Source: Pseudomonadota bacterium | GTDB taxonomy: Bacteria > Pseudomonadota > Alphaproteobacteria > Rhizobiales > Beijerinckiaceae | Length of the DNA: 64,000 nucleotides | Direction of reading: 5' to 3' | Assembly: GCA_021780435.1 (NCBI GenBank) | Contig: JAJXYV010000200.1 | Span: 1-64,000, forward strand | In this document: positions 28,101 to 57,217 of the stretch, piece after piece | Layout: each line of letters begins with the position of its first letter | Numbering within the stretch: position 1 is the stretch's first letter | Made by a program: the position numbers and the translations under genes | Notes under the pieces: model-generated | Seen by the model: only the letters and a program-made list of their open reading frames with translations | Database searches by the model: none | Told to the model about the DNA's origin: nothing

Positions 28101-29497
28101 GCTACCACGCCGAGCTGTCAGCGCGGAATCGGCGCCTGCGCGTCCACTACCTGCTCGAACCCGGCTGGAAGGCCGATGCGGCGATCCAAGGTCTCGGCCG
28201 CACCAACCGCACCAACCAGGCACAACCGCCGCTCTTCCGTCCGATCGCCACCGACGTGAAGGCGGAGAAGCGTTTCTTGAGCACGATCGCGCGCCGCCTC
28301 GACACGCTCGGCGCGATCACCCGCGGCCAGCGCCAGACTGGCGGCCAGGGCTTGTTCCGGCCGGAGGACAATCTCGAAAGCCACTACGGGCGCGACGCGT
28401 TGCGGCAGCTCTACATGCTGCTGGTCCACGGCAAGGTGGACGGCTGCTCGCTTCAGACCTTCGAGGACGCCACCGGCCTGAAGCTGATGGACGCCAACGG
28501 CATCAAGGACGAGTTGCCGCCGATCACCACCTTCCTGAATCGCCTGCTGGCGCTGACCATCGATCTGCAGAACGTGCTGTTCACGGCGTTCGAGCAGTTG
28601 CTGACCGCACGCATCGAAGGCGCTGTCGCGTCCGGGACCTACGATGTCGGGCTGGAGACGCTGCACGCCGAAAGCTTCGCGGTCACTGACCGGCGCGCGA
28701 TCTACACCCATCCCGGCACCGGCGCGGAGACGCGCCTGCTGACCATCATCCAGCGCGAGCGCAATCGTCCTGTGACACTGGACGATGCCCTGGATCGGCT
28801 TTCCGATCCGCGCGCCACGCTGCTGATCAACGAGCGCTCCAGCCGTGCGGCCGTGCAGGTCCCAGCGCCGAGTCTGATGCTCGACGACGGCGAGATCGAG
28901 CGGCGCGTGCGGCTGATCCGGCCGATGGAGCACCATCGCCTCCCCTTGAAGATGATGGCGGAGAGCCATTGGATGGAAGCCGATCGGGAGCGCTTCGCCG
29001 CCGCCTGGCAGGCCGAGCTCGCCGAGGTTCCCGCGTTCACCGACAGCACAATCCACATCGTCGCCGGCCTGCTCCTGCCGATCTGGAAGCGCCTGCCCAA
29101 CGAGTCGACGCGCGTCTATCGGCTTCAGACCGATACAGGCGAACGCATCATCGGCCGAAAGGTCTCGCCCGCCTGGGTGGCGAGCGGGCTCGCAACCGAC
29201 ACACCGGCGCTGACACCGGATGCCGCCTTCGCCGCCCTCATGGACGGGCGGACGGTCCTCGACCTTGCCGAAGGCCTGCAGCTCCGCCGCGTCCGCGTCA
29301 TGGGTGCGAACCGCATCGAGCTTACCGGATTCAACGACACGATGCGCGATCGGCTGAAGGCCTTTGGCCTCTTCCATGAGATCATCTCCTGGAAGCTGCG
29401 CATGTTCGTGCCGACCGACGCGAGCGGCATCGAGGCTCTGACGAAGGTGCTCGATCGCTATACGGTCGAACGCATCGGCGAGCGCGAGGCCGCGTGA
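25184..29497 (+). CDS. Strawberry-notch-type helicase with N-terminal methyltransferase-like domain (1437 aa)
   Basis: VLMNPPFSAMANVD (NPPF methylase motif), GDGTGAGKGRQVAGILLDNW, VIIFDESHAMQNA, VYVSATGATTVHNLAYAQRLGLWG. Confidence 0.85.
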   Translation: MTNPSSSAAARSAVPSLAPASAAIAQAAWLLLPDLERGRRIDAGILRAAMESAFGASDAAGAWDWKTAYDACEVATVLLLRKYGNALFRKAGSPVAALPMLAKIASLLPTHTRRSEESQALQQFSTPIPLGVAACAAAAITPADRVLEPSAGTGLLAILAELAGGSLILNELAEARAALLDRLFPGIAVTRFNAAQIDDHLDVAIAPSVVLMNPPFSAMANVDRRMADAALRHVTSALARLCEGGRLVAITGSSFAPGNPAWTDAFACLQERGQLVFSAAIDGVVYAKHGTTIDTRLLVIDKQPAVDPGVFPDSPGVAPDAATLLAWVIERVPPRLPIEASIAVTGARPAIPRTVRASAMRPSSVPALPEPDAVELAYETVDWTPPEGMRLTDALYEEYGLQSIRIPGSPAHPTKLVQSAAMASVAPPKPSYRPHLPANVITEGSLSDAQLESVIYAGEAHSGFLTDYWSVDATFDVVTAARDDTENRVRFRRGWFLGDGTGAGKGRQVAGILLDNWLKSRRRAVWISKSDKLIEDAQRDWSALGMERLLVTPLSRFRQGTPIRLAQGILFTTYATLRTDERGEKLSRVRQIVEWLGSDFDGVIIFDESHAMQNAVGGKGERGDQAASQQGRAGLRLQHALPNARVVYVSATGATTVHNLAYAQRLGLWGGEDFPFATRAEFVEAMEDGGVAAMEVLARDLKALGLYAARSLSYEGVEYELVEHQLTPEQVRIYDAYAGAFTIIHNNLDAAMRTANITGETGTLNAQAKSAARSAFESAKQRFFGHLLTSMKTPSLIRSIEHDLETGHAAVIQIVSTGEALMERRLAEIPTEDWNDVQVDITPREYVLDYLAHSFPVQLYEPFTDSEGNLCSRPVYRDGQPVESREAVARRDRLIEKLASHPPVPGALDQIVQRFGADVVAEVTGRSRRIVRKGDRLMVENRAGSANLAETAAFMDDAKHILVFSEAGGTGRSYHAELSARNRRLRVHYLLEPGWKADAAIQGLGRTNRTNQAQPPLFRPIATDVKAEKRFLSTIARRLDTLGAITRGQRQTGGQGLFRPEDNLESHYGRDALRQLYMLLVHGKVDGCSLQTFEDATGLKLMDANGIKDELPPITTFLNRLLALTIDLQNVLFTAFEQLLTARIEGAVASGTYDVGLETLHAESFAVTDRRAIYTHPGTGAETRLLTIIQRERNRPVTLDDALDRLSDPRATLLINERSSRAAVQVPAPSLMLDDGEIERRVRLIRPMEHHRLPLKMMAESHWMEADRERFAAAWQAELAEVPAFTDSTIHIVAGLLLPIWKRLPNESTRVYRLQTDTGERIIGRKVSPAWVASGLATDTPALTPDAAFAALMDGRTVLDLAEGLQLRRVRVMGANRIELTGFNDTMRDRLKAFGLFHEIISWKLRMFVPTDASGIEALTKVLDRYTVERIGEREAA

Positions 29498-29796
29498 TGC
29501 CGCGCGACGCTTCCGTACTGGCGCACCGTCTCGCGCACGAGGCCGAGGCGGTATGCCGCCACTATCTCTCCAATGGCCGGCGCGAGGGCCGCTATTGGCT
29601 GGTCGGCGACGCGCGCAACACGCCGGGCCGTTCCATGTTCGTCCGGCTGAAAGAGTCACCCAAGGGACCAGCCGGCAAATGGACCGATTATGTTGCGCCG
29701 CGAGTTATGTTGCGGCCCCGCGCCGGGCGGCCGTTTTGCGAGGGATCGGCGGCTTCTGCGCAACATAATCTCATCACGTCGGGGAGGGTCGCGTGA
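29494..29796 (+). pseudogene. Toprim-domain protein copy 1, 5' part, truncated by the RIT-containing element
   Basis: MPRDASVLAHRLAHEAEAVCRHYLSNGRREGRYWLVGDARNTPGRSMFVRLKESPKGPAGKWTD then IR-encoded tail; 3' part resumes at ~35279. Confidence 0.8.
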
Positions 29797-30839
29797 TGCC
29801 CCGCGACGCTTCCGAGCTGGCGCGGCGTCTCGCCCGCGAGGCCGAGGCGGTCTGCCGCCATTACCTGTCGAAGGGTCGACGCCAGGGCCGCTACTGGATG
29901 GTGGGCGACGTCCGCAACACGCCCGGCCGATCGATGTTCGTGCGGCTGAGCGGGCCGGACTCCGGCCCCGGCGCCGCCGGGCGCTGGACCGATGCCGCCT
30001 CGGCCGAGCATGGCGACCTGCTCGACGTGATCCGCGAGAGCTGCGGGCTCGTGGAGTTCCGCGAGATTGCCGAGGAGGCGCGACGCTTTCTCTCGCTGCC
30101 CCGCGCCGAACCGCCGGTCGCGCCAAGACCGCCAGGGCCGCAGGGCTCGGCCGAAGCGGCGCGCAAGCTCTGGGCCATGGCCAAGCCGCTCGCCGGCACC
30201 TTGGCCGAGACGTACCTCCGCGCCCGCGGGATCACGACCGTCCATCATGCGGGCGCATTGCGGTTTCATCCGCGGTGCTATTATCGCCCGGACGAGCATG
30301 CACCGACCGAGATCTGGCCGGCGATGATCGCTGCCGTCACCGATCTTTCCGGCGCGATCACCGGCGCGCATCGCACCTGGCTTGCCCCGGACGGCTTGGG
30401 CAAGGCGCCGATCGACACGCCGCGACGAGCCATGGGCGGCCTTCTTGGCCACGCCGTCCGGTTCGGCGTGGATGCTGACGTCCTCGCCGCCGGCGAAGGC
30501 ATCGAGACGATGCTGTCGCTGCGATGTGCGCTACCCGCCATGCCCATGGCCGCAGCGCTGTCCGCGAGTCATCTTGCCGCCTTCCAGTTCCCCTCGACGC
30601 TCCGCCGTCTTTACATAGTCCGCGACGCCGACGTTGCGGGCGATACGGCGGTCGCGGTGCTCACCGAACGAGCCGAAGCCGCTGGAATCGAGGCATTGGT
30701 TCTCTCCCCGCGCCTCGGAGACCTCAACGAGGATCTGCAAGCGTTCGGCTCCGGCGCCATTCGCGCAACCGTGCGCAACCAACTCGCCCATGAAGACGCG
30801 GTTCGCTTCATGCGCCGGAGGATGGTCAGGACAGGGTGA
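29793..30839 (+). CDS. Toprim-domain protein copy 2 (intact, 348 aa)
   Basis: MPRDASELARRLAREAEAVCRHYLSKGRRQGRYWMVGD...VLAAGEGIETMLSL...LYIVRDADVAG. Confidence 0.85.
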   Translation: MMPRDASELARRLAREAEAVCRHYLSKGRRQGRYWMVGDVRNTPGRSMFVRLSGPDSGPGAAGRWTDAASAEHGDLLDVIRESCGLVEFREIAEEARRFLSLPRAEPPVAPRPPGPQGSAEAARKLWAMAKPLAGTLAETYLRARGITTVHHAGALRFHPRCYYRPDEHAPTEIWPAMIAAVTDLSGAITGAHRTWLAPDGLGKAPIDTPRRAMGGLLGHAVRFGVDADVLAAGEGIETMLSLRCALPAMPMAAALSASHLAAFQFPSTLRRLYIVRDADVAGDTAVAVLTERAEAAGIEALVLSPRLGDLNEDLQAFGSGAIRATVRNQLAHEDAVRFMRRRMVRTG

Positions 30840-30864: not shown

Positions 30865-31878
30865 TCACAAGGCCTTCAAGAAGGCCATGAGGTCCTTGTC
30901 CTCCTTCCATGAGCGAGCCGGCCGCGGCTGCCCCACCTCGCAGAGTGCGACGGCGTTGGCCTTCAGCGTAAGGTCGATCTCGGCGTAGATGTTGGTCGTG
31001 CTGATCGAGACGTGTCCGAGCCAAGCGCGGATGGTGTTGATGTCCACGCCGGCGAGGACCAGGTGGCAGGCCGTGGTGTGCCGGATCACGTGCGGAGTTA
31101 TCGTCCGATTGGCCAGTTCCGGGACCTGGGCCGCACAACGCTCGATCAGTCGATAGACCCCGAAGCGGGTGAACGGCGTCCCGAGCCGGCTGACGAACAC
31201 GGCGTCTTCGCCAGCGCGACCGGTGATCTCGTCCGCCAGAACGCGCTCGGTTTCCGGCCACAGTGGGCACTGGCGCGTCCTGCCGCCTTTGCCGAGTAAG
31301 GTGGCGAGATCGTGCCCGCCGTTCCGCGACCCGATCTGCAGATCGCGCACCCTCAGCTGGGTCGCTTCGGAGACCCTTGCGCCGGTGTTGTAGAGGAAGA
31401 GCAGAAGCGCGTACTCGCTCCGGCCGCGCCGCGTCTTGCGGTCGGGCGTCGCCAGCACCGCCTCCATCTCCGCCCTGGTCAGCCATCCGACCGGCGGCGG
31501 CATGGACCTCTTCGACGCGATGGCCCGGATGTGACCGCACCATTCAACATGGGTCGGATCCCGGCTGCCGACGAAGCGCGCGAACGCCCGGATGGCCGCC
31601 AGCCGCTGGTTGCGGGTCCGTGCGGTGCAACCTCGATCCGTCTCCAGATGGGTGAGGAACTCCAGTACGTGTCCAGACGTGAGGTCCCATACGGCCAGCC
31701 GGTCCACGGGCTTGCGCACCTTCCGGCTGACGAAGGGCAGCAACAGGCTGAAGGTGTCGCGGTAGCTCTTGCGTGTGTTCCGGGCGAGATTGCGTTCGGT
31801 AACGATGTGCTCGCACAGGAACCGGCGGAGCCACGGGCCGAGGGTTGCGAGGTCAGCCATGCCGACCTCCCGCCGCAT
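30865..31878 (-). CDS. Tyrosine recombinase (third gene of trio)
   Basis: LLFLYNTGARVSEATQLRVRDL...TPHVIRHTTACHLVLAGVDINTIRAWLGHVSISTTNIYAEI. Confidence 0.9.
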   Translation of the reverse strand: MRREVGMADLATLGPWLRRFLCEHIVTERNLARNTRKSYRDTFSLLLPFVSRKVRKPVDRLAVWDLTSGHVLEFLTHLETDRGCTARTRNQRLAAIRAFARFVGSRDPTHVEWCGHIRAIASKRSMPPPVGWLTRAEMEAVLATPDRKTRRGRSEYALLLFLYNTGARVSEATQLRVRDLQIGSRNGGHDLATLLGKGGRTRQCPLWPETERVLADEITGRAGEDAVFVSRLGTPFTRFGVYRLIERCAAQVPELANRTITPHVIRHTTACHLVLAGVDINTIRAWLGHVSISTTNIYAEIDLTLKANAVALCEVGQPRPARSWKEDKDLMAFLKAL

Positions 31879-32803
31879 AATGGGCGAACCGGAGCGACGC
31901 CTGTTCCAGCAGCTCCGGCGTCATCGACAGATAGACCTTCGTGCCCTCCAGATCGGCGTGACCGAGATAGGTGGAGAGCACCGGCAGCAGCCGTTGCACG
32001 TCGGCGCCCTGCCGATACCAGTTCGTCAGGCGATGGACGGCGAAGCTGTGCCGAAGGTCATGCATCCGCGGGATTGTCCTGCCGCCTGCCATGCGGTGGA
32101 CCCCGGCGACACGCCTGAGCGTGTCGAACGCGGCCTGCACGGTACTGCTGGCGAGCTGCGTGCCGTCCTGATTCGCCAAGAGCAACGCGCTCTGTCCTTC
32201 CACAAGGCCGGCTTGCCGGCGCTGGGACACGTGGCGGTCCAGCACCGCGGCAAGCTGGGGGCCGACCGGGACCATCCGGCTCTTGTAGAACTTCGTGGCC
32301 CGGATGGTCAGGACGGCGTTCGCCAGATCGACGTCGGTCAGTGTGAGGCGGGTCGCTTCGCCGAAGCGTAATCCCGCCCCGTACAAGAGGAGAAGCAGCG
32401 TCCGGAACGTCACCGCATCCAGCTGGACCGCGCCGCGCCGGCTCGCCTCCACGGTCGCGGGATCGAAGAGGCGCGCAAGCTCATCGCGCGAGTAGATGTA
32501 GGGCGGCGCCCGGACGGGCGATCTCGGCGCATCGTGCGGTATCGGCGAGTGGGTAGTGTGGCCACGGCTGATCGCGTGACGCCAGAAGCCGGCAAGCACA
32601 TAGTACCTATTCTCGCGATGACGCGTCGGCGGGCCGTCGCCCGCCAGGTAGGCCAGGACTTGCCCCGTGGTGACCGCATCGCAGGCAGCGTCGCCATCGG
32701 CATGGTCTAGGAAGCGGCGAAGTAAGTTCGCCCCGGTCGTGAACTTGGCGCCATGAGCTCGTTGCCAGAGCACATAGCGTTCGATCGCCTCGCGCAGGAT
32801 CAT
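31853..32803 (-). CDS. Tyrosine recombinase (second gene of trio)
   Basis: LLLLYGAGLRFGEATRLTLTDV...RMHDLRHSFAVHRLTNWYRQGADVQRLLPVLSTYLGHADLEGTKVYLSMT; start MILREAIERYVLW. Confidence 0.9.
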   Translation of the reverse strand: MILREAIERYVLWQRAHGAKFTTGANLLRRFLDHADGDAACDAVTTGQVLAYLAGDGPPTRHRENRYYVLAGFWRHAISRGHTTHSPIPHDAPRSPVRAPPYIYSRDELARLFDPATVEASRRGAVQLDAVTFRTLLLLLYGAGLRFGEATRLTLTDVDLANAVLTIRATKFYKSRMVPVGPQLAAVLDRHVSQRRQAGLVEGQSALLLANQDGTQLASSTVQAAFDTLRRVAGVHRMAGGRTIPRMHDLRHSFAVHRLTNWYRQGADVQRLLPVLSTYLGHADLEGTKVYLSMTPELLEQASLRFAHYAAGGRHG

Positions 32804-34059
32804 GCCAGGCCCTCCAGGTCGAGAGCGGCCACCTCGCGAAGCGCGGCGAGGTCGACCTTGGCGTAGATCGTGGTGGAGGACGGATCGCTGTGGCCGAGGA
32901 AGTCCCCGATCACCTTCATCGGCGTGCCCTGATCCAGGAGGTGCTGGGCCGCGGCATGCCGCAGGGCGTGGGCGCCGCGTCGGCCGGTGACGACGCCGAT
33001 GCTCGCCAGCCGGGCGCGGACCATCTTGCCCAAGGCTTTTCGGTCGAGCGGCCGGATGGGTGCGAGCGTCGTGAAGAAGAGACTGCGCCCGAAGCCGGAC
33101 GGCCGCGCCTCCCTTATGTAGCGCAGGATGGCATGGCCCACGCCCTGTGACAGCGGCCACAGATGGGTCCGGCCCGGTTTCGGGCAGCGGACCCGAAGCA
33201 TGGCGTTCTCCCAGTCCAGATCGTCTAGCCGCAGCCCGCCGACCTCTCCGGTCCGGAGCCCGTACCCGATGAACAGCATCAGGATCGCCCGATCGCGCTT
33301 GTCGACAGGGCGGTCGCCCTCAACCGACGCCAGCAGGCGCACGACATCCTCGCGCGGCAGCCCCTTGGGCACGGTCTCGTCGGCCATGAACCGGGGCGCC
33401 ACGATGCCCGCGGCCAAGCCCGCTCGGCACCAGCCGCGCATCTCGGCGAACAGGAAGAACGGCCTCAGACGCTGTGCATAATCATGTCTCGTCCGGCGGC
33501 TCCAGGCGCCCCGCTTGTGCTCAGCCGCTACGGCATCGTCGATGTCGGTCATGCCGACGTCAACCAGCGGCGTGCCTCTTCCCTCCAGCCATAGGAAGAA
33601 GCGGTCGGCGGCACGGCAATAGTCTTGTATGGTCGCCGTGGAGAGACCGCGTTCCTCGCGCATCCATCGCTCGAAGGCGCTGACCTCGGCGCCATGCGGA
33701 TGGCGATGGTCGTGGGGTTGATTGAGCCAACCCAGAAAGGCCAGCCATCGGAGACCGTGGTTGACGAAGTGGCTGATTGTATTGGGTGATGCGGCCCGGT
33801 CGCACCTACGCCCTTTCGGCTGCGACCAAGTTGCGGCCGCAGCCTCAACCTGTGACCGGTTCACCCGATCGCCAGCCTTCAGGTCCAAGAGGCGGACCAA
33901 GCTCAGTTGATCATTGGCGCATTTTCGCAAGGTCGATCGCCTCGCGCCGGTCTCTTTGAGATGAACGAGGTATCGTTCCCGCTGCTCCGGGAGCGGCGCT
34001 GCGCGGTACCTCTCGGCGGTGTGTGGGAAGAAGATGTCGTCGAACATTTTGGCCTCCAT
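32800..34059 (-). CDS. Tyrosine recombinase (first gene of trio)
   Basis: LFIGYGLRTGEVGGLRLDDLDWEN...GAHALRHAAAQHLLDQGTPMKVIGDFLGHSDPSSTTIYAKVD; 4-bp overlap with next gene. Confidence 0.9.
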   Translation of the reverse strand: MEAKMFDDIFFPHTAERYRAAPLPEQRERYLVHLKETGARRSTLRKCANDQLSLVRLLDLKAGDRVNRSQVEAAAATWSQPKGRRCDRAASPNTISHFVNHGLRWLAFLGWLNQPHDHRHPHGAEVSAFERWMREERGLSTATIQDYCRAADRFFLWLEGRGTPLVDVGMTDIDDAVAAEHKRGAWSRRTRHDYAQRLRPFFLFAEMRGWCRAGLAAGIVAPRFMADETVPKGLPREDVVRLLASVEGDRPVDKRDRAILMLFIGYGLRTGEVGGLRLDDLDWENAMLRVRCPKPGRTHLWPLSQGVGHAILRYIREARPSGFGRSLFFTTLAPIRPLDRKALGKMVRARLASIGVVTGRRGAHALRHAAAQHLLDQGTPMKVIGDFLGHSDPSSTTIYAKVDLAALREVAALDLEGLA

Positions 34060-34104: not shown

Positions 34105-35145
34105 CTATGTTGATCGAACGAGAGGCCTATCGTCCGGCGCGAGCTGAGCGCACAGCCCGTTCCGCAGCACCTCGGCGCCGAGCTGGCGCAGGTCCTCGTT
34201 GAAGTCGTCCAGCGCGGGCACGAGCGTCAGCGCCTCGACCCCGGCGGCCGCCGCGCGGGCAGCCAGGCTCTCCGCTGCACCGCGTCCTGCGGCATCGTCG
34301 TCTCGCGCGAGGTAGAGCCGTCGTAGGCCGGTGGGCAGTTCGAGCGCGGTGAGGTGGTTGGCCGAGAGCGCGGCCGCTGCCGGCATCGAGGGCATAATCT
34401 GTCGAAGCGAGAGGATCGTCTCCAGCCCTTCTCCTGCCATCATGACGTGGAACGCGTGGCCGAACCGGACGGCGTTGCCGAGAAGCAGGCCCATGGCGCG
34501 GCGCGGCGTCGAGACCGGCGCTTTGCAGGCCGATGCCGGATCGAGCCAGGTGCGGTGGACGCCCGTGATCGTGCCATCGAGCGCCGTGACCGCCGAGATC
34601 AGCGCGGGCCAAGCGTCCCGAGACCGATCGCGAGGGTCGTCATCGTCGCCGCGATACCAGCAGCGCGGGTGGAAGCGGAGCGCTTCGCAGCCCCTCAGAT
34701 CCTCGATCCCGCGAGCGTGAAGATACGCCTCGGCCAATGTGCCGGCGAGAGGCTTGGCGATGGCCCAGAGTCTGCGCGCAGCTTCGGCCGAGCCCTGCGG
34801 GGCGGGCGGTCTTAGCGCAGACGGCGGTTCGGCGCGGGGCAGCGAGAGGAAGCGCCGCGCCTCCTCGGCAACCTCGCGGAACTCCACGAGCCCGCAGCTC
34901 TCGCGGATCACGTCGAGCAGGTCGCCGTGCTCGGCCGAGGCGGCATCGGTCCAGCGCCCGGCGGCGCCGGGGCCGGAGTCCGGCCCGCTCAGCCGCACGA
35001 ACATCGATCGGCCGGGCGTGTTGCGGACGTCGCCCACCATCCAGTAGCGGCCCTGGCGTCGACCCTTCGACAGGTAATGGCGGCAGACCGCCTCGGCGTC
35101 CCGCGCGAGACGCCGCGCCAGCTCGGAAGCGTCGCGGGGCATCAC
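34105..35145 (-). CDS. Toprim-domain protein copy 3 (intact, 346 aa, inverted)
   Basis: N-terminal ~145 aa nearly identical to copy 2, C-terminal half divergent (VMMAGEGLETILSLRQ...LYLARDDDAAG). Confidence 0.85.
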   Translation of the reverse strand: MMPRDASELARRLARDAEAVCRHYLSKGRRQGRYWMVGDVRNTPGRSMFVRLSGPDSGPGAAGRWTDAASAEHGDLLDVIRESCGLVEFREVAEEARRFLSLPRAEPPSALRPPAPQGSAEAARRLWAIAKPLAGTLAEAYLHARGIEDLRGCEALRFHPRCWYRGDDDDPRDRSRDAWPALISAVTALDGTITGVHRTWLDPASACKAPVSTPRRAMGLLLGNAVRFGHAFHVMMAGEGLETILSLRQIMPSMPAAAALSANHLTALELPTGLRRLYLARDDDAAGRGAAESLAARAAAAGVEALTLVPALDDFNEDLRQLGAEVLRNGLCAQLAPDDRPLVRST

Positions 35146-35278
35146 GCGACCATCCCCGACGTGCGGAGATTATGTTGCACAGAAGCTGCCGATCCCGCGC
35201 AAAACGGCCGCCCAGCACGGGGCCGCAACATAATCTCCGGCGCAACATAATCGGTCTTATGTTCAACTGCACATAAGA

Positions 35279-36138
35279 CGGACGCCGCCACGGGCGAGCA
35301 CGGGGACTTGCTCGACATCATCCGGGAAAGCTGCGGCCTTCTCGACTTCCACGATGTCGCCGATGAGGCGCGACGCTTCCTAAGCTTGCCCCGCTCGGAC
35401 CCGGAGCCAGCGCCGAAACCTGCACGTCTGCCGGCGCAGACAGGATCGTCGGAAGCCGCGCGGCGGCTGTTCGCTATGTCACAGCCAATCGCACGGACCC
35501 TCGTGGAAACGTATTTGCGCAATCGCGGCATTACGGCTTTGCACGAAGACGGCGCGCTGCGCTTTCACCCGCGCTGCTACTATCGCCCGGACGAGGACGC
35601 GCCGACCGAAACCTGGCCCGCGATGATCGCCCGCGTCACTGATCTCGACGGCCGGATGACCGGCGCACACCGGACTTGGCTCGATCCGTCAGGCCGTGGC
35701 AAGGCGCCGATCGACACGCCGCGACGGGCGATGGGCAACCTTCTCGGTAACGCAGTCCGCTATGGTGTGGCGAACGACGTGCTCGCGGCCGGCGAAGGCA
35801 TCGAGACCATGCTGTCACTGCGACGCGTGCTGCCGACCTTGCCGATGGCCGCGGCGCTTTCCGCCAACCACCTCACCGCCATGCTGCTCCCGCCGACGTT
35901 GCACCGTCTCTATATCGCGCGAGACGACGATGCGGCCGGTGACGCGGCGGTGACGGCTCTGACCGAACGTGCCGAGGCGGCCGGCATCGAGGCGATTGCA
36001 TGGTCCCCCAGGCTCGGCGACTTCAACGAGGATCTGCGCACATTCGACATCGATGGACTCCGGGCAGCCCTGCGCACCCAGCTCGCACCGCAGGACATCA
36101 TCCGCTTCATGCTGTGCGCGACCGCCGAGACGGGATGA
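35279..36138 (+). pseudogene. Toprim-domain protein copy 1, 3' part
   Basis: DAATGEHGDLLDIIRESCGLLDFHDVADEARRFLSL...VLAAGEGIETMLSLRR...LYIARDDDAAG. Confidence 0.8.
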
Positions 36139-40499: not shown

Positions 40500-40761
40500 A
40501 GTTCGGGCCGCGCGAGCCTTGCTGAATTGGAAGCAGGAGATGCTCGCCGAGAAAGCCCTGGTGGCGCTGACCGCCCTGAAGCGTCTGGAGTCCGAAAGGC
40601 AGCTCCAGGTGCACGAGGGCACGCGCGACCAGGTGCGCCGTGTTCTGGAAGCCGCTGGGATCCTGTTCGTCGAATCCGACCGTGGCCGCGGCGTCATGCT
40701 CCTCCATGAGGCAGAGCCGGCAACGCGACCAGCGAGAAAACCGGCGACCTTGAAACGATGA
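40483..40761 (+). CDS. XRE-family HTH regulator, QseC-like by context
   Basis: MITGRQVRAARALLNWKQEMLAEKALVALTALKRLES. Confidence 0.7.
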   Translation: MITGRQVRAARALLNWKQEMLAEKALVALTALKRLESERQLQVHEGTRDQVRRVLEAAGILFVESDRGRGVMLLHEAEPATRPARKPATLKR

Positions 40762-40809
40762 AGCCGGTTCGTGTTAACGTTTAGGAAACCGTATCGCTGA
40801 GGAGCCTTG

Positions 40810-41088
40810 ATGCAGTCGCCACCCTTGGATCCGCCGGTGGACGATGTCGCCCCAACCGCCGCAGTCCTGACCGGTTACGACGAGCGACATGCCATCACCT
40901 ATATCCGTCTGCTCGACGCGGAAGCTGACGGCGCCGATTGGCAGGAAGTTGCAAAGATCGTCCTGCATATCGACCCCGCGCGGGAACATGATCGCGCTCG
41001 GCGGGCTTGGGAGAGCCATCTCGCGCGCGCCCGGTGGATGACCGAGAAGGGATATCGGCATCTTTTGCAAGGCGGCGCTCCTCATTGA
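40810..41088 (+). CDS. Short DUF2285 protein, QseM-like by domain and context
   Basis: MQSPPLDPPVDDVAPTAAVLTGYDERHAITYIRLLDAEADGADWQEVAKIVLHIDP...WMTEKGYRHLL. Confidence 0.7.
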   Translation: MQSPPLDPPVDDVAPTAAVLTGYDERHAITYIRLLDAEADGADWQEVAKIVLHIDPAREHDRARRAWESHLARARWMTEKGYRHLLQGGAPH

Positions 41089-41208
41089 AAATAGTTCCCT
41101 GCTGATTCGGCAACGCACGTTGCTCTTTCTCTCTGTTTCGGGGCGCTACCCCAGCGTGCATCCTCTAGCGAGCCGACCTCTTGCTTTTGACACGAGGAGA
41201 CGTTGCCC

Positions 41209-41980
41209 ATGGCTCGCGCCGATTGGCGATCGGCGGGCGCGTATGAGGGTCTGCGAACGCTCGACGCGCCTGCCTTCGCCTATGAGTTCCTCTGCCGCAA
41301 TCCTGACTTTCTGAGCGACCACGCGCGCCTGGCGCGCAGCAGCCGAAAGCGAACACTTGATGCCGTCGAGGCCGAGGCGTTCGCCCGGCGCTGGGGGGTG
41401 CGATTTCAAGCGAGATTTAGATCCCGCGCGGCACGGCGCCGTTCTCTGGACGCCACGGACGCTTCCGAGCGTGGTGACCCTGACGAAACTCCCGGACGGC
41501 CTCGCTGATACTAGACTTGGCCTCGACGCGCGAAGCCTCCAATCCATTCTCACGGTCGAAGACGAAGATCAGGTCGTCACGTTGCGCGGCGCGCGCCTAC
41601 GGCTTCACCGCGAGGATAAGGTCGAGGCACCCGTCGCTGTTCTCCTTCCGCTCGACCAACTTTTCGACATCCGCATCGCAGCCGCGCTCAGGATGTGGCG
41701 CGGACTGACCGGTCGCACGCCGGGCCCCGACCTCGGTATGCTCACACCCGAGCGGCGCAACCGGCTCATCCACGCATTGCGCGCGCTGGACGGTCGGCTT
41801 GAGCGCGCGACCTATCCCGAGATCGCCGCCATTTTGTTCGACACCGAACCAATCTCCAAGCGTGACTGGATTTCGCACGAGCTGCGGGATCGGACCGGCC
41901 GCATCATCCGGCTCGGATTCTTCATGATGCGTGGCGGCTACCGCCGCCTTCTCCTGCATCCCTATCGCCGCCGCGTGTAG
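41209..41980 (+). CDS. FseA-like excision activator (DUF6499 + DUF2285) predicted to require +1 frameshift at TTT-C 41404-41407
   Basis: Frame 1: MARADWRSAGAYEGLRTLDAPAFAYEFLCRNPDF...FARRWGVRF; frame 2 after slip: KRDLDPARHGAVLWTPRTLPSVVTLTKLP...GGYRRLLLHPYRRRV. Confidence 0.75.
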
Positions 41981-42031
41981 CGCTCAGCCCGTCTGGATGC
42001 GCTTTCGCCACCCTCCGAGATCGCGCTATTT

Positions 42032-42112: not shown

Positions 42113-42397
42113 ATGTCCACCAATCTCGCAGGTTTGCCGCCGCGCTACCTGCGCACGCCAGAGGCGTCGCGCTTCGTCGGCCTCTCCATCCGCACGCTCG
42201 AAAAGCACCGCATCTACGGCACCGGCCCACGCTATTCGAAGCTCGGCGGGCGCGTCGTGTACCGCATCGAGGACCTGCAGGCCTGGGTCGACGCCGCCGC
42301 CAAGGCGTCGACATCCGACCCCGGCAAGGTCGTCGTGCTGCCAGCGCGGCGCCATACGGCTGCCGAACTTGAACAAGCCCGCCAGCCGCGCCGCTGA
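42113..42397 (+). CDS. AlpA/HTH_17-type DNA-binding protein, RdfS-like excisionase candidate
   Basis: RYLRTPEASRFVGLSIRTLEKHRIYGTGPRYSKLGGRVVYRIEDLQAWVDA. Confidence 0.75.
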   Translation: MSTNLAGLPPRYLRTPEASRFVGLSIRTLEKHRIYGTGPRYSKLGGRVVYRIEDLQAWVDAAAKASTSDPGKVVVLPARRHTAAELEQARQPRR

Positions 42398-46436: not shown

Positions 46437-48188
46437 GTGACAACCCGCGACGACGACCTGCGCATCCGGCCTGGGCGCATCCAGCACGGCAACCGCGGCG
46501 GCAAGCGTCCCCAGACCTTCGTTGGCGAAGTCATGCGGGCCGCGAAGAAGGCCGGGCATGTCGGCAGCAGCTTCCGGTCGAGCCAGGGCCGCAGCCGCTC
46601 GCGGTTCGGCCGCGGGCGCCGGGCAGCAGTCTCGATCCGGTTGCGCTCGAACGCTCGCCGGGTAGTGATGAAGGCGCGCGTCGTCCGCCATCAGGGCACG
46701 CGCTTCCGTTCGGCCCCGCTGCCGAAGCATATGGCCTATCTGAAGCGCGAGGGCGTAACGCGCGACGGCGAGAATGCCCGCATGTTCGACGCCGCTTCCG
46801 ATACGGCGGATGAACGCGCCTTCGCCGAGCGGTGCGAAGATGACCGCCATCACTTCCGCTTCATCATCTCGCCCGAAGACGGGGCAGAGCTTGGTGACCT
46901 CAAGACTTTCACCCGCGAGTTGATGCAGGACGTCGAGAAGGACCTCGGCACCAAGCTCGACTGGGTCGCCGTCGACCATTGGAACACCGACAATCCCCAT
47001 GTCCACGTCCTCATCCGCGGCCGCGCCGATGACGGTCAGGACCTGGTCATCAGCCGTGAATACATCAGCCGGGGTTTTCGCGATCGCGCGGCCGAGCGTG
47101 TGACGTTGGAGCTCGGTCCGCGCAGCGAGCGGGAGATCCGCACCTCCCTGGAGCGGGAGGTGAGCGCGGAACGCTGGACCAGCCTTGATGGCGCGTTGCG
47201 CGACATCTCCGATGAATGCGGCGGGGTCGCCGATCTGAGACCCGGCCCGAATGCCGAGGACCCGGAGCTGCGGCATCTGTTGATCGGCCGGGCCACGAAG
47301 CTGGAACGCCTCGGCCTTGCCGACCCGGTTGGCTCTGCATGTTGGACGCTGAAGCCGGGCCTTGACCAGACCCTGCGCCAACTCGGGATCCGGGGCGACA
47401 TCATCAAGACCATGCACCAGGCAATGAGCACCGGCGGAACGGAACCCGACGTCAGTACCTTTGCTCTGCATGGCGACGAACCGTCCGATCCGGTGCTCGG
47501 CCGGCTGGTGAAGCGGGGCCTCGACGATGAGCTGAAGGGGACGGCCTACGCTATCGTCGCCGGCGTCGACGGACGCACCCATCACCTCAGGTTTTCCGAT
47601 CTCGAGATGACCGGCGACGCGCCAGCGGGGGCCATCGTCGAGGCGCGGGCCTATGACGATGCCAAAGGTCACCGCCGCCTATCTCTCGCTACGCGCTCCG
47701 ATCTCTCGATCGAGGCGCAGGTGACGGCGTCGGGCGCGACCTGGCTTGACCGCCAGCTTCTCGCCAAGGACCCGCCGCTCAGCGGCGGCGGCTTCGGCGC
47801 CGAAGTGCGCGATGCCATGGACGCGCGCGTCGACCATCTCGCCGCGGAAGGGCTTGCCCACCGGCAAGGGCAACGCATGGTCTTTGCCCGGGATCTTCTC
47901 GCCACCCTGCGGCGGCGGGAATTGGATGACGCGACGTCGAAGCTGTCGACCGAGACTGGGCTGGCCTACCAGCCATCCGCTGAAGGAGAGCACGTCGCCG
48001 GGGTCTATCGCCAGCGCGTGAATCTCGCCACCGGCCGCTTCGCCATGATCGACAACGGGCTCGGCTTCCAACTCGTGCCGTGGCGCCCGGCGCTGGAGAA
48101 GGATCTCGGCCGCGAAGTGCGTGGCGTCATGGCACCGGGCGGCAATGTCGAGTGGAGCCTCGGCCGGAAACGTGGGCTCGGCCTATGA
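46437..48188 (+). CDS. Relaxase/mobilisation nuclease, VirD2-like (DUF3363)
   Basis: HHFRFIISPEDGAELGDLKTFTRELMQDVEKDLGTKLDWVAVDHWNTDNPHVHVLIRG (HxHxH-type motif). Confidence 0.88.
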   Translation: MTTRDDDLRIRPGRIQHGNRGGKRPQTFVGEVMRAAKKAGHVGSSFRSSQGRSRSRFGRGRRAAVSIRLRSNARRVVMKARVVRHQGTRFRSAPLPKHMAYLKREGVTRDGENARMFDAASDTADERAFAERCEDDRHHFRFIISPEDGAELGDLKTFTRELMQDVEKDLGTKLDWVAVDHWNTDNPHVHVLIRGRADDGQDLVISREYISRGFRDRAAERVTLELGPRSEREIRTSLEREVSAERWTSLDGALRDISDECGGVADLRPGPNAEDPELRHLLIGRATKLERLGLADPVGSACWTLKPGLDQTLRQLGIRGDIIKTMHQAMSTGGTEPDVSTFALHGDEPSDPVLGRLVKRGLDDELKGTAYAIVAGVDGRTHHLRFSDLEMTGDAPAGAIVEARAYDDAKGHRRLSLATRSDLSIEAQVTASGATWLDRQLLAKDPPLSGGGFGAEVRDAMDARVDHLAAEGLAHRQGQRMVFARDLLATLRRRELDDATSKLSTETGLAYQPSAEGEHVAGVYRQRVNLATGRFAMIDNGLGFQLVPWRPALEKDLGREVRGVMAPGGNVEWSLGRKRGLGL

Positions 48189-48297
48189 AGGTCGCGGCGC
48201 CGTCCATCCGATTGCTGCGCCAGCGTGTCCGGGTTCCCGACGCCTCGCAGTCAGAGCTTGCGTCCCCCTCGCGAGACGCTGCTGATTTGGTGTCACC

Positions 48298-50280
48298 ATG
48301 AACGCGACCAAGATTCTCTGGGGCCAAATCCTCCTCGTCTGCACCGTTGTCCTCGCCTTCATATGGAGCGCAACGGAATGGACAGCCTGGCAGCTCGCCT
48401 TTCAGCCGCAGCTCGGTCACCCCTGGTTCGTGCTGTTCGGCTGGCCGATGTACCAGCCGCCCGCCTTCTTCTGGTGGTGGTTTGCCTACGACGCTTACGC
48501 CCACGACATCTTTGTCACCGGCGGGTTCATCGCGGGAGCTGGCGGCGTCGCCGCAGTAGTCGTGGCGGTCGCCATGTCGGTGTGGCGCGCGCGCGAAGTG
48601 AAGAAGGTCACGACCTATGGATCCGCGCGCTGGGCCGAGGCGCGCGAGATTCGGAAGGCTGGGCTTCTTCATCCCGATGGCGTTCTGCTGGGCCGATGGA
48701 AGGATGCCTATCTTCGCCACCACGGCCCGGAGCACGTGCTGTGCTTCGCACCAACGCGGTCCGGCAAGGGTGTCGGCCTGGTGGTTCCGACGCTACTCAC
48801 CTGGCCAGGCTCGGCCATTGTCCATGACATTAAGGGAGAGAACTGGGGACTGACCGCCGGCTGGCGTGCCCGCTTCGGTCGGGTGCTGCTGTTCGATCCG
48901 ACCAACACAAAGAGTTCGGCTTACAACCCGCTGCTCGAGGTCCGTCGCGGCGAGTGGGAAGTCAGGGATGTTCAGAACATCGCCGACGTGCTGGTCGATC
49001 CCGAAGGCGCGCTGGAGAAAAGGAACCATTGGGAGAAGACGAGCCACGCGCTCCTTGTCGGCACGATCCTGCACGTCCTCTACGCCGAGAGGGACAAGAC
49101 CCTCGCCGGCGTCGCCAACTTCCTCTCCGACCCCAAGCGGCCGATCGAGACGACGCTGCGAGCGATGATGACGACGCCCCATCTGGGGAAGAACGGCGTT
49201 CACCCCGTCGTGGCCAGCGCCGCGCGCGAGCTGCTCAACAAGAGTGAAAACGAACGCTCCGGCGTGCTGTCGACAGCCATGTCGTTCCTTGGGCTCTATC
49301 GAGATCCAGTCGTCGCCGCCGTTACGCAGCGTTGCGACTGGCGCATCCGCGATCTCGTCGAGGCCGAGCATCCCGTGACCCTCTACCTCGTCGTGCCGCC
49401 GTCGGACATCAGCAGGACCAAGCCTCTGATCCGCCTGATCCTCAACCAGATCGGTCGGCGCCTCACCGAGGAGTTGGGATCGAAGCGCCGCCGGCATCGG
49501 CTGCTGCTCATGCTCGACGAATTTCCCGCACTCGGCCGTCTCGACTTCTTCGAGAGCGCATTGGCCTTCATGGCGGGCTACGGGCTGAAGAGCTTTCTCA
49601 TCGCCCAAAGCCTGAACCAGATCGAAAAAGCTTACGGGCAGAACAATTCCATTCTCGACAACTGCCATGTGCGCGTGAGCTTCGCCACGAACGATGAGCG
49701 CACCGCCAAACGCGTCTCCGACGCGCTCGGCACCGCGACCGAAATGCGCGCCATGAAGAACTACGCTGGCAGCCGCCTAAGTCCATGGCTCGGTCATTTG
49801 ATGGTCTCGCGCCAGGAGACGGCGCGGCCACTCCTCACGCCCGGCGAGGTCATGCAGCTCCCAGCGGATGACGAGCTGGTTTTGATGTCCGGCTGCGCGC
49901 CCATTCGGGCAAAGAAAGCGCGCTACTACGAAGACCCTGAGATGAAGGCGCGGATCCTTCCGCCACCAGCGCTTACCGATCCGAAATCGCTCCCGGCCGA
50001 CAAACGTCCTCCCGTTCCGCCCGGTGGCGACTGGGCTGGCGCCGTCGTTGCCCCAGCGGCATCCGAGACCGAAGACCCCGCCAACGCCGGTATCCGGCGC
50101 GAACCGGAATTGCCGGAACACGAGGAGATCGTGCCCCAGCCGCCAAAGCCTGTTCATGAGTTCGAGCCCGCGGACGAGGAGCCGGACGATGACGTTCGGC
50201 GCCAGCGCATCATGCAGCGAACCTTCGGGACGGTCGCCCGCCAAGTCTCGCTCGATCCCGGCGATGATATGCAGATGTGA
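48298..50280 (+). CDS. traG: Conjugal transfer coupling protein TraG/VirD4
   Basis: FAPTRSGKGVGLVVPTLLTWPGSAIVHDIKGENW; LLMLDEFPALG. Confidence 0.92.
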   Translation: MNATKILWGQILLVCTVVLAFIWSATEWTAWQLAFQPQLGHPWFVLFGWPMYQPPAFFWWWFAYDAYAHDIFVTGGFIAGAGGVAAVVVAVAMSVWRAREVKKVTTYGSARWAEAREIRKAGLLHPDGVLLGRWKDAYLRHHGPEHVLCFAPTRSGKGVGLVVPTLLTWPGSAIVHDIKGENWGLTAGWRARFGRVLLFDPTNTKSSAYNPLLEVRRGEWEVRDVQNIADVLVDPEGALEKRNHWEKTSHALLVGTILHVLYAERDKTLAGVANFLSDPKRPIETTLRAMMTTPHLGKNGVHPVVASAARELLNKSENERSGVLSTAMSFLGLYRDPVVAAVTQRCDWRIRDLVEAEHPVTLYLVVPPSDISRTKPLIRLILNQIGRRLTEELGSKRRRHRLLLMLDEFPALGRLDFFESALAFMAGYGLKSFLIAQSLNQIEKAYGQNNSILDNCHVRVSFATNDERTAKRVSDALGTATEMRAMKNYAGSRLSPWLGHLMVSRQETARPLLTPGEVMQLPADDELVLMSGCAPIRAKKARYYEDPEMKARILPPPALTDPKSLPADKRPPVPPGGDWAGAVVAPAASETEDPANAGIRREPELPEHEEIVPQPPKPVHEFEPADEEPDDDVRRQRIMQRTFGTVARQVSLDPGDDMQM

Positions 50281-50285
50281 CGCGC

Positions 50286-50723
50286 ATGAGGACCAAACAC
50301 ACCTTTCGCCTCCCGCCCGATTTGGCGGGGAAGCTCGCCGATTATGCCGCCCGCAAGCGCGTGCCACAGGCTCTGGTCGTAGAAGCGGCGCTCGCCTCGC
50401 ATCTGTCTCCCGATGGCGCCGATCGATTGGAGGCCGCGCTGGCGCGGCGGCTCGATCGCATGACGCGGCAGATGGAACGGATCGAGAGGCACGTCACAAT
50501 CTCGAATGAGGCGTTGGCCGTGTTCGTGCGCTTCTGGCTGACCAGTACGCCGGCTTTACCTGACACCGCTCTCGCCGCCGCGCAGACCAAAGGGCGCGAG
50601 CGCTACGATGGATTCGTCGAAGCCCTCGGACGCCGTCTGGCGCGTGGACGAAAGCTCGCAGACGAGGTGAGCCAGGACGTCGCTTTCGAGTCGGAACAGG
50701 ACGCGACGGCGAAGAGCTCCTGA
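50286..50723 (+). CDS. RHH/CopG-family protein
   Basis: TKHTFRLPPDLAGKLADYAARKRVPQALVVEAALASHL; between traG and trbB. Confidence 0.75.
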   Translation: MRTKHTFRLPPDLAGKLADYAARKRVPQALVVEAALASHLSPDGADRLEAALARRLDRMTRQMERIERHVTISNEALAVFVRFWLTSTPALPDTALAAAQTKGRERYDGFVEALGRRLARGRKLADEVSQDVAFESEQDATAKSS

Positions 50724-50867
50724 TAGCCGACCATCCCGGCGACCTGTCTTTCTATCCCAGAGCCCTCCCGCCTCATCGCCGTTGTTGCAGAGACCCATTT
50801 CCGGCTCTTTCTAATCAACCCCGCTGACACATGCGCCTCCGAGTGAGGCGAACTTGCGGGGTTCGCA

Positions 50868-51833
50868 GTGACGACGATCTCTCTTCGGTCTGAAGCTTTC
50901 GCCCGCGGCGCGCGCATGCTGCGCACCGCGCTCGGGCCGGCGATCTCCGCCTATCTGGAAGATCCCAGCATCGTCGAGGTGATGCTCAATCCCGACGGTC
51001 GCTTGTGGATCGACCGGTTGTCTGGCGGCCTCGAAGACACCGGCTGCCGCGTTACGCCCGCAGACGCCGAACGCATCGTGCGCCTCGTCGCGCACCATGT
51101 CGGCGTTGAGGTGCATGCGGGCAGTCCGCGGGTCTCGGCGGAGCTGCCGGAAAGCGGGGAACGGTTCGAGGGCCTGGTTCCCCCGGTGGCCGCTGCGCCG
51201 TGCTTCGCGATCCGGCGTCCTGCTGTCGCCGTCTTCACCCTCGGCGATTATGTGGACGCCGGGATCATGTCGGACGCGCAGGCCGAGCTGCTGCGCGCGG
51301 CAGTCCGCGAACGCAAGAACATCCTCGTCGCCGGCGGCACCTCGACCGGCAAGACCACGCTCGTCAATGCTCTGCTCGCGGAGGTCGCCAAGACCGGCGA
51401 CCGCGTGGTGCTGATCGAGGATACGCGCGAGCTGCAATGCGCCGCACCGAATCTTGTGGCGCTTCGCACCAAGGACGGCGCCGCCTCGCTGTCCGATCTT
51501 GTGCGCTCGGCCCTTAGGCTGCGGCCAGATCGCATTCCCATCGGTGAGGTCCGTGGGGCCGAAGCGCTCGACCTGTTGAAGGCCTGGGGCACGGGGCATC
51601 CGGGCGGCGTCGGCACCCTTCACGCAGGCTCCGCCATCGGCGCACTACGACGCCTCGAGCAGCTCATCCAGGAAGCCGTCGTCACCGTCCCGCGCGCGCT
51701 CATCGCCGAGACTATCGACCTCATCGCGGTCCTCGCCGGCCGCGGCTCCGCGCGACGGCTCGCCGAGCTCGCCACGGTCAAGGGCCTCGGCCCGACCGGC
51801 GATTACGTCCTCACCCCCGCAGGAGAACCATGA
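50868..51833 (+). CDS. trbB: TrbB T4SS ATPase
   Basis: [46 protein letters not shown]. Confidence 0.92.
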
Positions 51834-52159
51834 TGATGATGCTTTCTCGCATTCGCGATCGCATGACCGCGGCGACGGCCTTTGCCGTCGTCGCGTTGAT
51901 GACGGCGCCGGCCTATGCCGCCGGCTCCAACATGCCGTGGGAACAACCGCTCAATCAGATCCTGGAGTCGATCCAGGGTCCGGTCGCCAAGGTGGTTTCG
52001 GTGATCGTCATCATCGTGACCGGCCTCACGCTGGCCTTCGGCGAGACCTCCGGTGGCTTTCGCAGACTGATCCAAATCGTCTTCGGTCTGTCGATCGCCT
52101 TCGCCGCATCGAGCTTCTTCCTGACCTTCTTCCAGTTCGGCGGCGGGGTGCTGGTCTGA
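51830..52159 (+). CDS. trbC: TrbC pilin-like protein
   Basis: Small two-TM protein (MPWEQPLNQILESIQGPVAKVVSVIVIIVTGLTLAFGE) in trb order. Confidence 0.88.
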   Translation: MMMMLSRIRDRMTAATAFAVVALMTAPAYAAGSNMPWEQPLNQILESIQGPVAKVVSVIVIIVTGLTLAFGETSGGFRRLIQIVFGLSIAFAASSFFLTFFQFGGGVLV

Positions 52160-52428
52160 TGGAGCACGATGAGCCCATCGGCGGCTTCTACGCGCCCGTT
52201 CATCGCGCGTTGACCGACCCGATCCTGCTCGGCGGCGCGCCGCGTGCGGTGGCGATCGTCAACGGTACGCTCGCCGCCGCCGTCGGGCTTGGACTGCGCC
52301 TCTGGATCGTTGGCGGCTTGATCTGGCTGATCGGGCACGTCGCCGCCGTTTGGGCCGCCAAGCGCGATCCCGCGTTCGTCGACGTCGTTCGGCGCCACCT
52401 GCGGTATCCGCAGCATCTGGTCTCGTGA
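52159..52428 (+). CDS. trbD: TrbD
   Basis: PIGGFYAPVHRALTDPILLGGAPRAVAIVNGTLAAAVGLGL. Confidence 0.88.
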   Translation: MEHDEPIGGFYAPVHRALTDPILLGGAPRAVAIVNGTLAAAVGLGLRLWIVGGLIWLIGHVAAVWAAKRDPAFVDVVRRHLRYPQHLVS

Positions 52429-52438
52429 GGTTCGACCG

Positions 52439-54871
52439 ATGATGAACCTCGCCGAATATCGCCATCGCACGCAGAGCCTCGCCGACTTTCTGCCTTGGGC
52501 GGCGTTGGTCGAGAAGGGCGTAATCCTCAACAAGGACGGTTCGTTTCAACGAACCGCAAAGTTCAGGGGGCCCGATCTCGATTCCGCGACGCCAGCCGAG
52601 CTAGTCGCGATCACGTCGCGTCTCAACAACGCGCTGCGGCGCCTGGGCACCGGCTGGGCGGTCTTCATCGAGGCGCAGCGCGTGCCCGCCCATCGCTATC
52701 CGGTAGGGCTGTTTCCCGATGCCACGTCCGGCCTGGTCGACGCCGAGCGGCGTGCGCAGTTCGAGGAGGAAGGCGCGCATTTCGAGAGCCGCTATTTCCT
52801 GACGCTGCTGTGGCTGCCGCCCGCCGATGACGCCGCGCGCGCGGAGAGCTGGCTCTATGAGGGCCGCTCGCATGCCGGCGCGGATTGGCGCGCCGCACTG
52901 GAAGGCTACATTGATCGCACCGGCCGCGTGCTCGCGCTGATCGAGGGCTTCATGCCCGAAGTCGATTGGCTGAATGACGGCGAGACGCTGACCTACCTGC
53001 ATTCCTGTGTCTCGACCCGTCGCCAACGCGTGCGCGTGCCCGAGACGCCGATGTATCTCGATGCCATCCTGGTCGACGAGGACCTCACGGGCGGGCTCGA
53101 ACCACAGCTCGGCCGCGCGCATCTGCGCACGCTGACGATCATGGGTTTCCCGTCGCAGACCTGGCCGGGCCTGCTCGACGACCTCAATCGTCTCGCCTTT
53201 CCCTATCGCTGGGCGACGCGCGCCGTCTGCCTCGACAAGACCGACGCCACCAAGCTCCTCGCGAAAATCCGCCGCCAGTGGTTCGCCAAACGCAAGTCGA
53301 TCATGGCGATCCTGAAGGAGGTGATGACCAACGAGTCATCGGTCCTGATGGACTCCGATGCCGCCAACAAGGCGCTCGATGCCGACCAGGCTTTGCAGGA
53401 ACTCGGCACCGACCTCGTGGGCGAGGCTTACGTCACGGCGACCGTCACTGTCTGGGATGAAGATCCCCGCGTCGCGGACGAGCGCCTGCGCCTGGTCGAG
53501 AAGGCCATCCAGGGCCGCGACTTCACCTGCATGCGCGAAGGCGTCAACGCCATCGAGGCGTGGCTCGGATCGCTCCCCGGCCATGTCTATGCCAATGTCC
53601 GCCAGCCGCCCGTCTCGACGCTCAATCTCGCCCACATGATGCCGTTCTCGGCCGTGTGGGCCGGGCCGGAACGGGATGAGCATTTCAAGGCGCCGCCGCT
53701 GTTCTTCGCGCGGACCGAGGGGTCGACGCCGTTCCGGTTCAGCCTTCATGTCGGCGATGTCGGCCACACTCTGATCGTCGGCCCGACCGGCGCCGGCAAG
53801 AGCGTGCTGCTGGCCCTGATGGCCCTGCAGTTTCGGCGCTATGCGGGCGCGCAGGTCTTCGCCTTCGACTTCGGCGGATCGATCCGCGCCGCCGCGCTCG
53901 CCATGGGCGGCGACTGGCACGATCTGGGCGGCGCACTGGCCGACGACGCCAGCGCTCCCGTCGCCTTGCAGCCGCTGGCTCGCGTTGATGACGCCGGCGA
54001 GCGCGCCTGGGCCGCCGAATGGGTCGCGACGCTCCTCGCCCGGGAGTCCGTCACGGTCACGCCTGAACTGAAGGAGCATCTATGGTCAGCCCTGACCTCG
54101 CTCGCCTCCGCGCCGGTTGCGGAGCGGACGATCACCGGCCTTTCGGTGCTCTTGCAGTCCAACGCGCTCAAGCAAGCGCTACAGCCCTACACGGTGGCCG
54201 GACCTTGGGGCCGTTTGCTCGACGCGGAAACGGAGCGCCTTGGCGAAGCGGAGGTGCAGGCTTTCGAGACCGAGGGCCTGATCGGCGCAGGCGCGGCGCC
54301 AGCCGTGCTGTCCTACCTTTTCCACCGCATCGAAGATCGCTTCGACGGCCGGCCGACCTTGCTCATCGTCGACGAGGGCTGGCTTGCGCTCGACGATCCC
54401 GGCTTCGCCGGCCAGCTTCGCGAATGGCTGAAGACGCTGCGGAAGAAGAACGCCTCCGTCATCTTCGCCACGCAGTCGCTCGCCGATATCGATGGCAGCG
54501 CCATCGCGCCCGCGATCATCGAGAGCTGCCCGACACGGATTCTTCTGCCGAATGAACGCGCGCTGGAGCCGCAGATCGCGACGATCTACCGGCGCTTCGG
54601 TCTCAACGATCGGCAGATCGAGATCCTGAGCCGGGCGACGCCGAAGCGCGAATACTACTGCCAGTCTCGGCGCGGCAATCGCGTGTTCGAGCTCGGCCTC
54701 TCCGAAGTCGCGCTCGCCTTCACCGCCGCATCGTCGAAGACGGACCAGACCGCCATCGACGAGATCCTCACCATCCACGGCCGCGACGGCTTCGCCGCCG
54801 CATGGCTGCGCAGCAAGGACCTTGATTGGGCGGCCGACATGCTCACCCGCAATCAGGAGGTTTCGTCATGA
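52439..54871 (+). CDS. trbE: TrbE T4SS ATPase (VirB4)
   Basis: IVGPTGAGKSVLLALMALQFRRY; LLIVDEGWLALDDP. Confidence 0.93.
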   Translation: MMNLAEYRHRTQSLADFLPWAALVEKGVILNKDGSFQRTAKFRGPDLDSATPAELVAITSRLNNALRRLGTGWAVFIEAQRVPAHRYPVGLFPDATSGLVDAERRAQFEEEGAHFESRYFLTLLWLPPADDAARAESWLYEGRSHAGADWRAALEGYIDRTGRVLALIEGFMPEVDWLNDGETLTYLHSCVSTRRQRVRVPETPMYLDAILVDEDLTGGLEPQLGRAHLRTLTIMGFPSQTWPGLLDDLNRLAFPYRWATRAVCLDKTDATKLLAKIRRQWFAKRKSIMAILKEVMTNESSVLMDSDAANKALDADQALQELGTDLVGEAYVTATVTVWDEDPRVADERLRLVEKAIQGRDFTCMREGVNAIEAWLGSLPGHVYANVRQPPVSTLNLAHMMPFSAVWAGPERDEHFKAPPLFFARTEGSTPFRFSLHVGDVGHTLIVGPTGAGKSVLLALMALQFRRYAGAQVFAFDFGGSIRAAALAMGGDWHDLGGALADDASAPVALQPLARVDDAGERAWAAEWVATLLARESVTVTPELKEHLWSALTSLASAPVAERTITGLSVLLQSNALKQALQPYTVAGPWGRLLDAETERLGEAEVQAFETEGLIGAGAAPAVLSYLFHRIEDRFDGRPTLLIVDEGWLALDDPGFAGQLREWLKTLRKKNASVIFATQSLADIDGSAIAPAIIESCPTRILLPNERALEPQIATIYRRFGLNDRQIEILSRATPKREYYCQSRRGNRVFELGLSEVALAFTAASSKTDQTAIDEILTIHGRDGFAAAWLRSKDLDWAADMLTRNQEVSS

Positions 54872-55928: not shown

Positions 55929-55933
55929 GCGCA

Positions 55934-57214: not shown

Positions 57215-57217
57215 CCC

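Follow-up and report, generated by a model that had tools for sequence, protein, structure and literature searches.

Within positions 41209-41980 of the window (the whole 64,000-nucleotide stretch of DNA analyzed here), one reading frame holds a DUF6499 (PF20109) half and another a DUF2285 (PF10074) half, raising the question of whether these are the remains of one gene, two genes, or a single gene that is read through a ribosomal frameshift. The obvious precedent is the excision circuit of ICEMlSym-R7A, in which TraR leads to the activator FseA by way of a low-frequency +1 frameshift, FseA acts at the FseA box and on rdfS, and QseM binds the DUF6499 domain (PMC10359603, PMC5882170, PMC11963761). 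The family-wide +1 site is not new and has already been published (PMC10359603; PMC5009743): Jowsey et al. 2023 described 4709 FseA homologues, about 61% of them split by a conserved +1 site that spans alpha-, beta- and gammaproteobacteria (PMC10359603). Taken as a whole, our observations are best explained, with high confidence, by an fseA gene whose +1-frameshifted DUF6499-DUF2285 activator belongs to an R7A-like excision circuit. Against the published set of 4709 homologues (PMC10359603), the locus is an ordinary split member with no known difference.

The split gene and its predicted joined product

Frame 1 starts at ATG 41209, behind a ribosome-binding-like GAGGAG at 41194-41199, begins with MARADWRS and reaches FARRWGVRF at the slip site. 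There, TTT (41404-41406) is followed by C 41407, and the halves join by a +1 shift at TTT-C (41404-41407). Without the shift, frame 1 runs for 33 more codons to TGA 41506-41508. An open +1 frame extends from 41315 to its stop at 41978-41980 and, from AAG 41408, translates as KRDLDPARHGAVLW...HPYRRRV. With TTT read, a slip to TTC (41405-41407) and reading resumed at AAG 41408, the joined fseA product would be 256 aa long. The parts of the gene are as follows.

41209-41406 (+): fseA N-terminal part (DUF6499 / PF20109), 66 codons including the slip Phe, equivalent to Msi172; from the PF20109 match and dN/dS
41392-41407 (+): frameshift motif TGG GGG GTG CGA TTT C, with slip tetramer TTTC at 41404-41407; from the family consensus TGGGGGTTGCGATTTC and codon skew
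41407-41508 (+): 0-frame tail read without the shift, 33 codons plus stop, outside FseA; from sequence, dN/dS and variable length
41408-41980 (+): fseA C-terminal part in the +1 frame (middle domain and DUF2285 / RovC_DNA-bd, PF10074), equivalent to Msi171; from PF10074 and dN/dS

On the joined protein, PF20109 matched residues 5-66 (E 6.6e-17) and PF10074 matched residues 145-248 (E 4.9e-29), both above the curated Pfam cut-offs, and the PF20109 match ended exactly at the slip phenylalanine. Open reading frames, translation and these matches agree with the coordinates and frames first assigned to both halves in the initial annotation and bear out the domain pair it had named. The pair, the +1 direction and the UUU to UUC slip are those of FseA (msi172-msi171) of ICEMlSym-R7A in Mesorhizobium japonicum. 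Among solved structures, a single-sequence search with the fused protein gave no match, whereas a profile search matched the DUF2285-family DNA-binding domain of Yersinia RovC (PDB 6xz5, E 2.1e-9), a distant protein that differs in activating type VI secretion genes rather than rdfS.

The slip motif and its codon choice

We compared codon choice at the motif with the background of the same genes in 54 divergent split homologues (less than ~80% alike). Motif codons were skewed to rare synonyms: the slip Phe was TTT in 52/52 cases (24% elsewhere), the Gly was GGG in 43/52 (background 14%), the Arg was CGA in 28/40 (background 11%), and TTG stood in the motif in 31/46 (background 11%); the p-values are 1e-18 or smaller but take no account of shared ancestry, so they are descriptive only. 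The family consensus is TGG GGG TTG CGA TTT C. Slip tetramers were TTTC in 47 homologues, TTTT in five and TGTC in two, so that the following base was C in 49 and T in five; tRNA-Phe requires one of these two bases for re-pairing after a +1 step. Counting against the fseA reading, the next 0-frame codon past the slip reads CAA at this locus and otherwise only in three relatives (L066, L067 and L076), most homologues having CGN or CCN there. We see in the codon skew evidence that the whole 16-base motif, beyond the slip codon, is constrained at the nucleotide level. Plasmid pGDIPal5II (NC_010123) of Gluconacetobacter diazotrophicus carries an fseA, 46.6% identical over the match, that is likewise split at TGGGGGTTGCGATTTC, with WGL where our locus has WGV and CGA after the slip where it has CAA.

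The codon data also bear on the possibility that the halves are two separate proteins, a DUF6499 stub and a DUF2285 protein with their own starts, acting as a heteromer. Automatic annotation does list them as separate genes, and the +1 frame offers a TTG at 41357, but this start lies upstream of the slip, inside the frame-1 coding sequence. Separate translation would leave the rare-codon skew at the slip site unexplained, and R7A makes one fused FseA (PMC10359603). We consider such a pair of proteins quite improbable.

Within the frameshift reading, homologues that carry TGTC provide a natural test of the re-pairing model. TGT-C replaces TTT-C in L015, L122, L128, L129 and L130 (Bradyrhizobium for the named ones) and in L070. 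In these loci the +1 frame is still open for ~186-195 codons, and a comparison of five TGT carriers, with L015, L128 and L129 identical to one another, gave it a dN/dS of 0.16-0.21. Re-pairing on GUC would be impossible for tRNA-Cys, so the TGT-C loci either use a different slip mode or have an impaired fseA. The UGGGGGU before the slip could pair with the anti-Shine-Dalgarno CCUCC. In prfB, an internal Shine-Dalgarno sequence pairs with the anti-Shine-Dalgarno at a spacing of three bases to the P-site codon; at our locus six bases separate GGG from UUU, a wider spacing. We can offer only as a speculative and rather unlikely extension that UGGGGGUUGCGAUUUC is more than a slip codon, its SD-like GGGGGU and CGA serving as cis stimulators as in prfB, and that the Bradyrhizobium UGU-C lineage frameshifts without tRNA re-pairing, its +1 frame being under purifying selection.

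Conservation of the split and selection on the frames

Scanning 85,488 species genomes with an alignment as the query, we recovered 66 loci that encode relatives, up to 84% identical; a single-sequence scan of the genome contigs had returned nothing. In all 66 relatives the gene is divided at the same W-G-x-R-F motif and in the same +1 direction, with TTT as the slip codon in 60 and in L126, and TGT in five. In three relatives (L069, L116 and L131) the +1 frame is shortened by disruption or by the end of a contig. The 0-frame tail varies in length from 3 to 85 codons among the relatives. Another 38 split loci, drawn from the window's relatives and class, show the +1 split too, as do four annotated plasmids, which are not independent evidence because they were located by the TTT pattern. 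Single-frame homologues do exist (L018, L020, L026, L047, L050, L051 and L054) but are remote; those sampled have lost TTTC and carry other codons at the slip position. In the tree a supported branch (97/92) sets them apart along with three split sequences, and the window's lineage sits well inside the split sequences.

Both halves of fseA are under purifying selection, and the alternative 0-frame tail mostly not. The N-terminal part gave dN/dS of 0.18-0.46 against eight relatives and the C-terminal +1 part 0.18-0.38 against relatives; with the four closest (L066, L067, L068 and L076), we obtained 0.20-0.35 upstream of the slip and, in the +1 frame downstream of it, 0.18-0.24. Values for the 0-frame tail were 0.33-1.67, mostly near or above 0.8, and 0.41-1.61 against the four closest relatives; these estimates come from a short stretch on which the overlapping frame imposes constraint of its own.

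These data weigh directly on the idea of a pseudogene, in which a one-base indel broke a once single-frame activator whose halves are now decaying. A frame split alone would look the same, and the assembly is fragmented (276 contigs). Yet an identical split in 66/66 relatives is incompatible with decay or a sequencing slip, and because dN/dS lies well below 1 in each of the two frames we reject decay; moreover, nothing interrupts the +1 frame before its stop, and the sampled single-frame forms belong to a remote branch. Shared split and purifying selection on both frames refute the pseudogene reading in practice, and we regard it as very improbable. A sequencing or assembly error is conceivable in that a single assembly of the genome was examined, but its probability is negligible, as relatives from other assemblies, including the isolate Afipia sp. 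1NLS2 (L076), have the same frames and the same TTTC.

What had been proposed from the window's letters thus held up for the frameshifted gene. The +1 direction and the slip from TTT to TTC are upheld by the relatives' shared split and the codon skew, and the view that the split is functional rather than decayed gains support from that shared split and the low dN/dS of both halves. The initial annotation had asked whether TTTC and the frame-1 motif are conserved among homologues, and the alignment found them so in the counts given above; single-frame homologues in related elements, named there as evidence to the contrary, number 0/66 among the relatives.

The surrounding element and the proposed circuit

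The neighborhood of fseA contains the following features.

40810-41088 (+): lone-DUF2285 protein, QseM-like, candidate FseA antiactivator; PF10074 E 1.5e-9, no DUF6499
41998-42025 (+): candidate FseA box TGCGCT-N16-ATCGCG, 115 nt before the rdfS-like start; from a position model, weak
42113-42397 (+): rdfS-like recombination directionality factor (winged HTH, HTH_17); PDB 8dgl RdfS E 2.9e-9 (phmmer), PF12728
42406-45359 (+): backbone operon of replication initiator A, ParA, a small ORF, DUF2840 and S26 peptidase (TraF-like); Pfam, gene calls
46437-60071 (+): conjugation genes for DUF3363 relaxase (RlxS-like), coupling protein and trb-type secretion; Pfam DUF3363, T4SS-DNA_transf, CagE_TrbE_VirB, CagX
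61256-61939 (-): acyl-homoserine-lactone synthase (TraI-like); PF00765 E 6.6e-53
62035-62760 (-): LuxR/TraR-type autoinducer-binding regulator; PF03472 E 4.5e-33 at 62272-62709, ORF bounds

In gene content, these surroundings reproduce the ICEMlSym-R7A circuit: as there, a conserved slip motif and an rdfS target are linked to qseM-like, traI, traR, relaxase and trb genes, and relaxase, trb T4SS and regulators stand together on one unit, as in ICEMlSym-type elements. The arrangement differs, however. In ICEMlSym-R7A, fseA follows traI2 in one operon, whereas here it is preceded by the QseM-like gene, which lies directly upstream and has the lone DUF2285 without DUF6499 expected of QseM; and in ICEMlSym-R7A traF and msi107 follow rdfS, whereas here rdfS and traF are separated by repA, parA and DUF2840 genes. 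The order DUF2285 - DUF6499 - DUF2285 - HTH - repA recurs in annotated plasmids, and pGDIPal5II shares the lone DUF2285 just upstream of fseA.

The downstream RdfS-like gene named in the initial annotation was borne out by its match to the solved RdfS of ICEMlSym-R7A (8dgl). It lies 132 nt downstream of fseA, and such a gene comes after fseA in most homologous loci examined. An insertion of 0.7-1.6 kb separates the two genes in Acetobacteraceae and some other relatives (L060, L073, L075 and L085), where an FseA-box-like repeat remains with rdfS; in pGDIPal5II (L060, NC_010123, 4877-6136), which differs from our locus in this respect, the insertion is an antiporter gene.

We searched for the FseA box with a model of two hexamers trained on other loci, the window excluded, which placed boxes at 113-117 nt in most loci. 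The window's candidate scored a modest 6.8, a score reached by 1.2% of shuffles at the conserved position and 6.3% over a wider range; its sequence is kept in L066, L067, L068 and L076. A plain hexamer search (>=5/6 symmetry) missed this candidate, and no convincing tra-box palindrome was found in 40691-41212. By the sequence-level tests applied, the locus fits FseA, with the FseA box as the one weak point.

The choice of partner integrase is a point against the R7A-like reading: the nearest downstream candidate on the contig, a tyrosine integrase at 66284-67564 (-), stands 24 kb off, beyond the window, and has an AlpA-like ORF of its own. It adjoins guaA (67860-69476), a known ICE site in Mesorhizobium (PMC8627217). 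When the contig was searched for a second copy of the guaA 3' end as an att repeat, nothing rose above chance. The AlpA-like ORF, at 66040-66351 (+), is convergent with the integrase, as rdfG is with intG in published tripartite ICEs (PMC5882170), so the element could use a second directionality factor.

Separately, the window holds three consecutive tyrosine recombinase genes on the minus strand at 30865-34059 (a RIT-like trio), flanked by inverted DUF7146/Toprim gene segments (29682-30233 and 34705-35256, 93% matching). A third, diverged Toprim copy (about 70%) lies at about 35277-35994, and a direct repeat of 163 nt (29488-29650 and 29787-29949; 84% alike) is located just upstream of the first Toprim copy.

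From R7A we infer slippage, DNA binding, rdfS activation, antiactivation and excision control at this locus. Ribosomes on the DUF6499 ORF would reach UGG GGG GUG CGA UUU, where a minority, with tRNA-Phe (anticodon GAA) on UUU, would slip one base forward to UUC, turning a wobble pair into a Watson-Crick pair. Those that slip would stay in the +1 frame and make the 256-aa DUF6499-DUF2285 activator; the others would stop 33 codons later, leaving a non-activating DUF6499 stub. Making the activator here very probably depends on the +1 frameshift. The joined protein would bind the inverted repeat that precedes the neighboring rdfS-like gene, turning on rdfS and downstream transfer genes. The upstream QseM-like protein would counter it by binding DUF6499, and as a QseM it would be expected to bind TraR too; quorum sensing, through the linked AHL synthase and LuxR-type protein, probably stands above the circuit.

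Automatic annotation of this locus would give two unrelated hypothetical proteins and miss the activator. The mechanism is already described in rhizobia and common in proteobacteria, and the locus is a well-conserved new example: a well-supported added case of a conjugative-element activator that is probably frameshift-dependent, with its quorum-sensing and transfer circuit intact around it.
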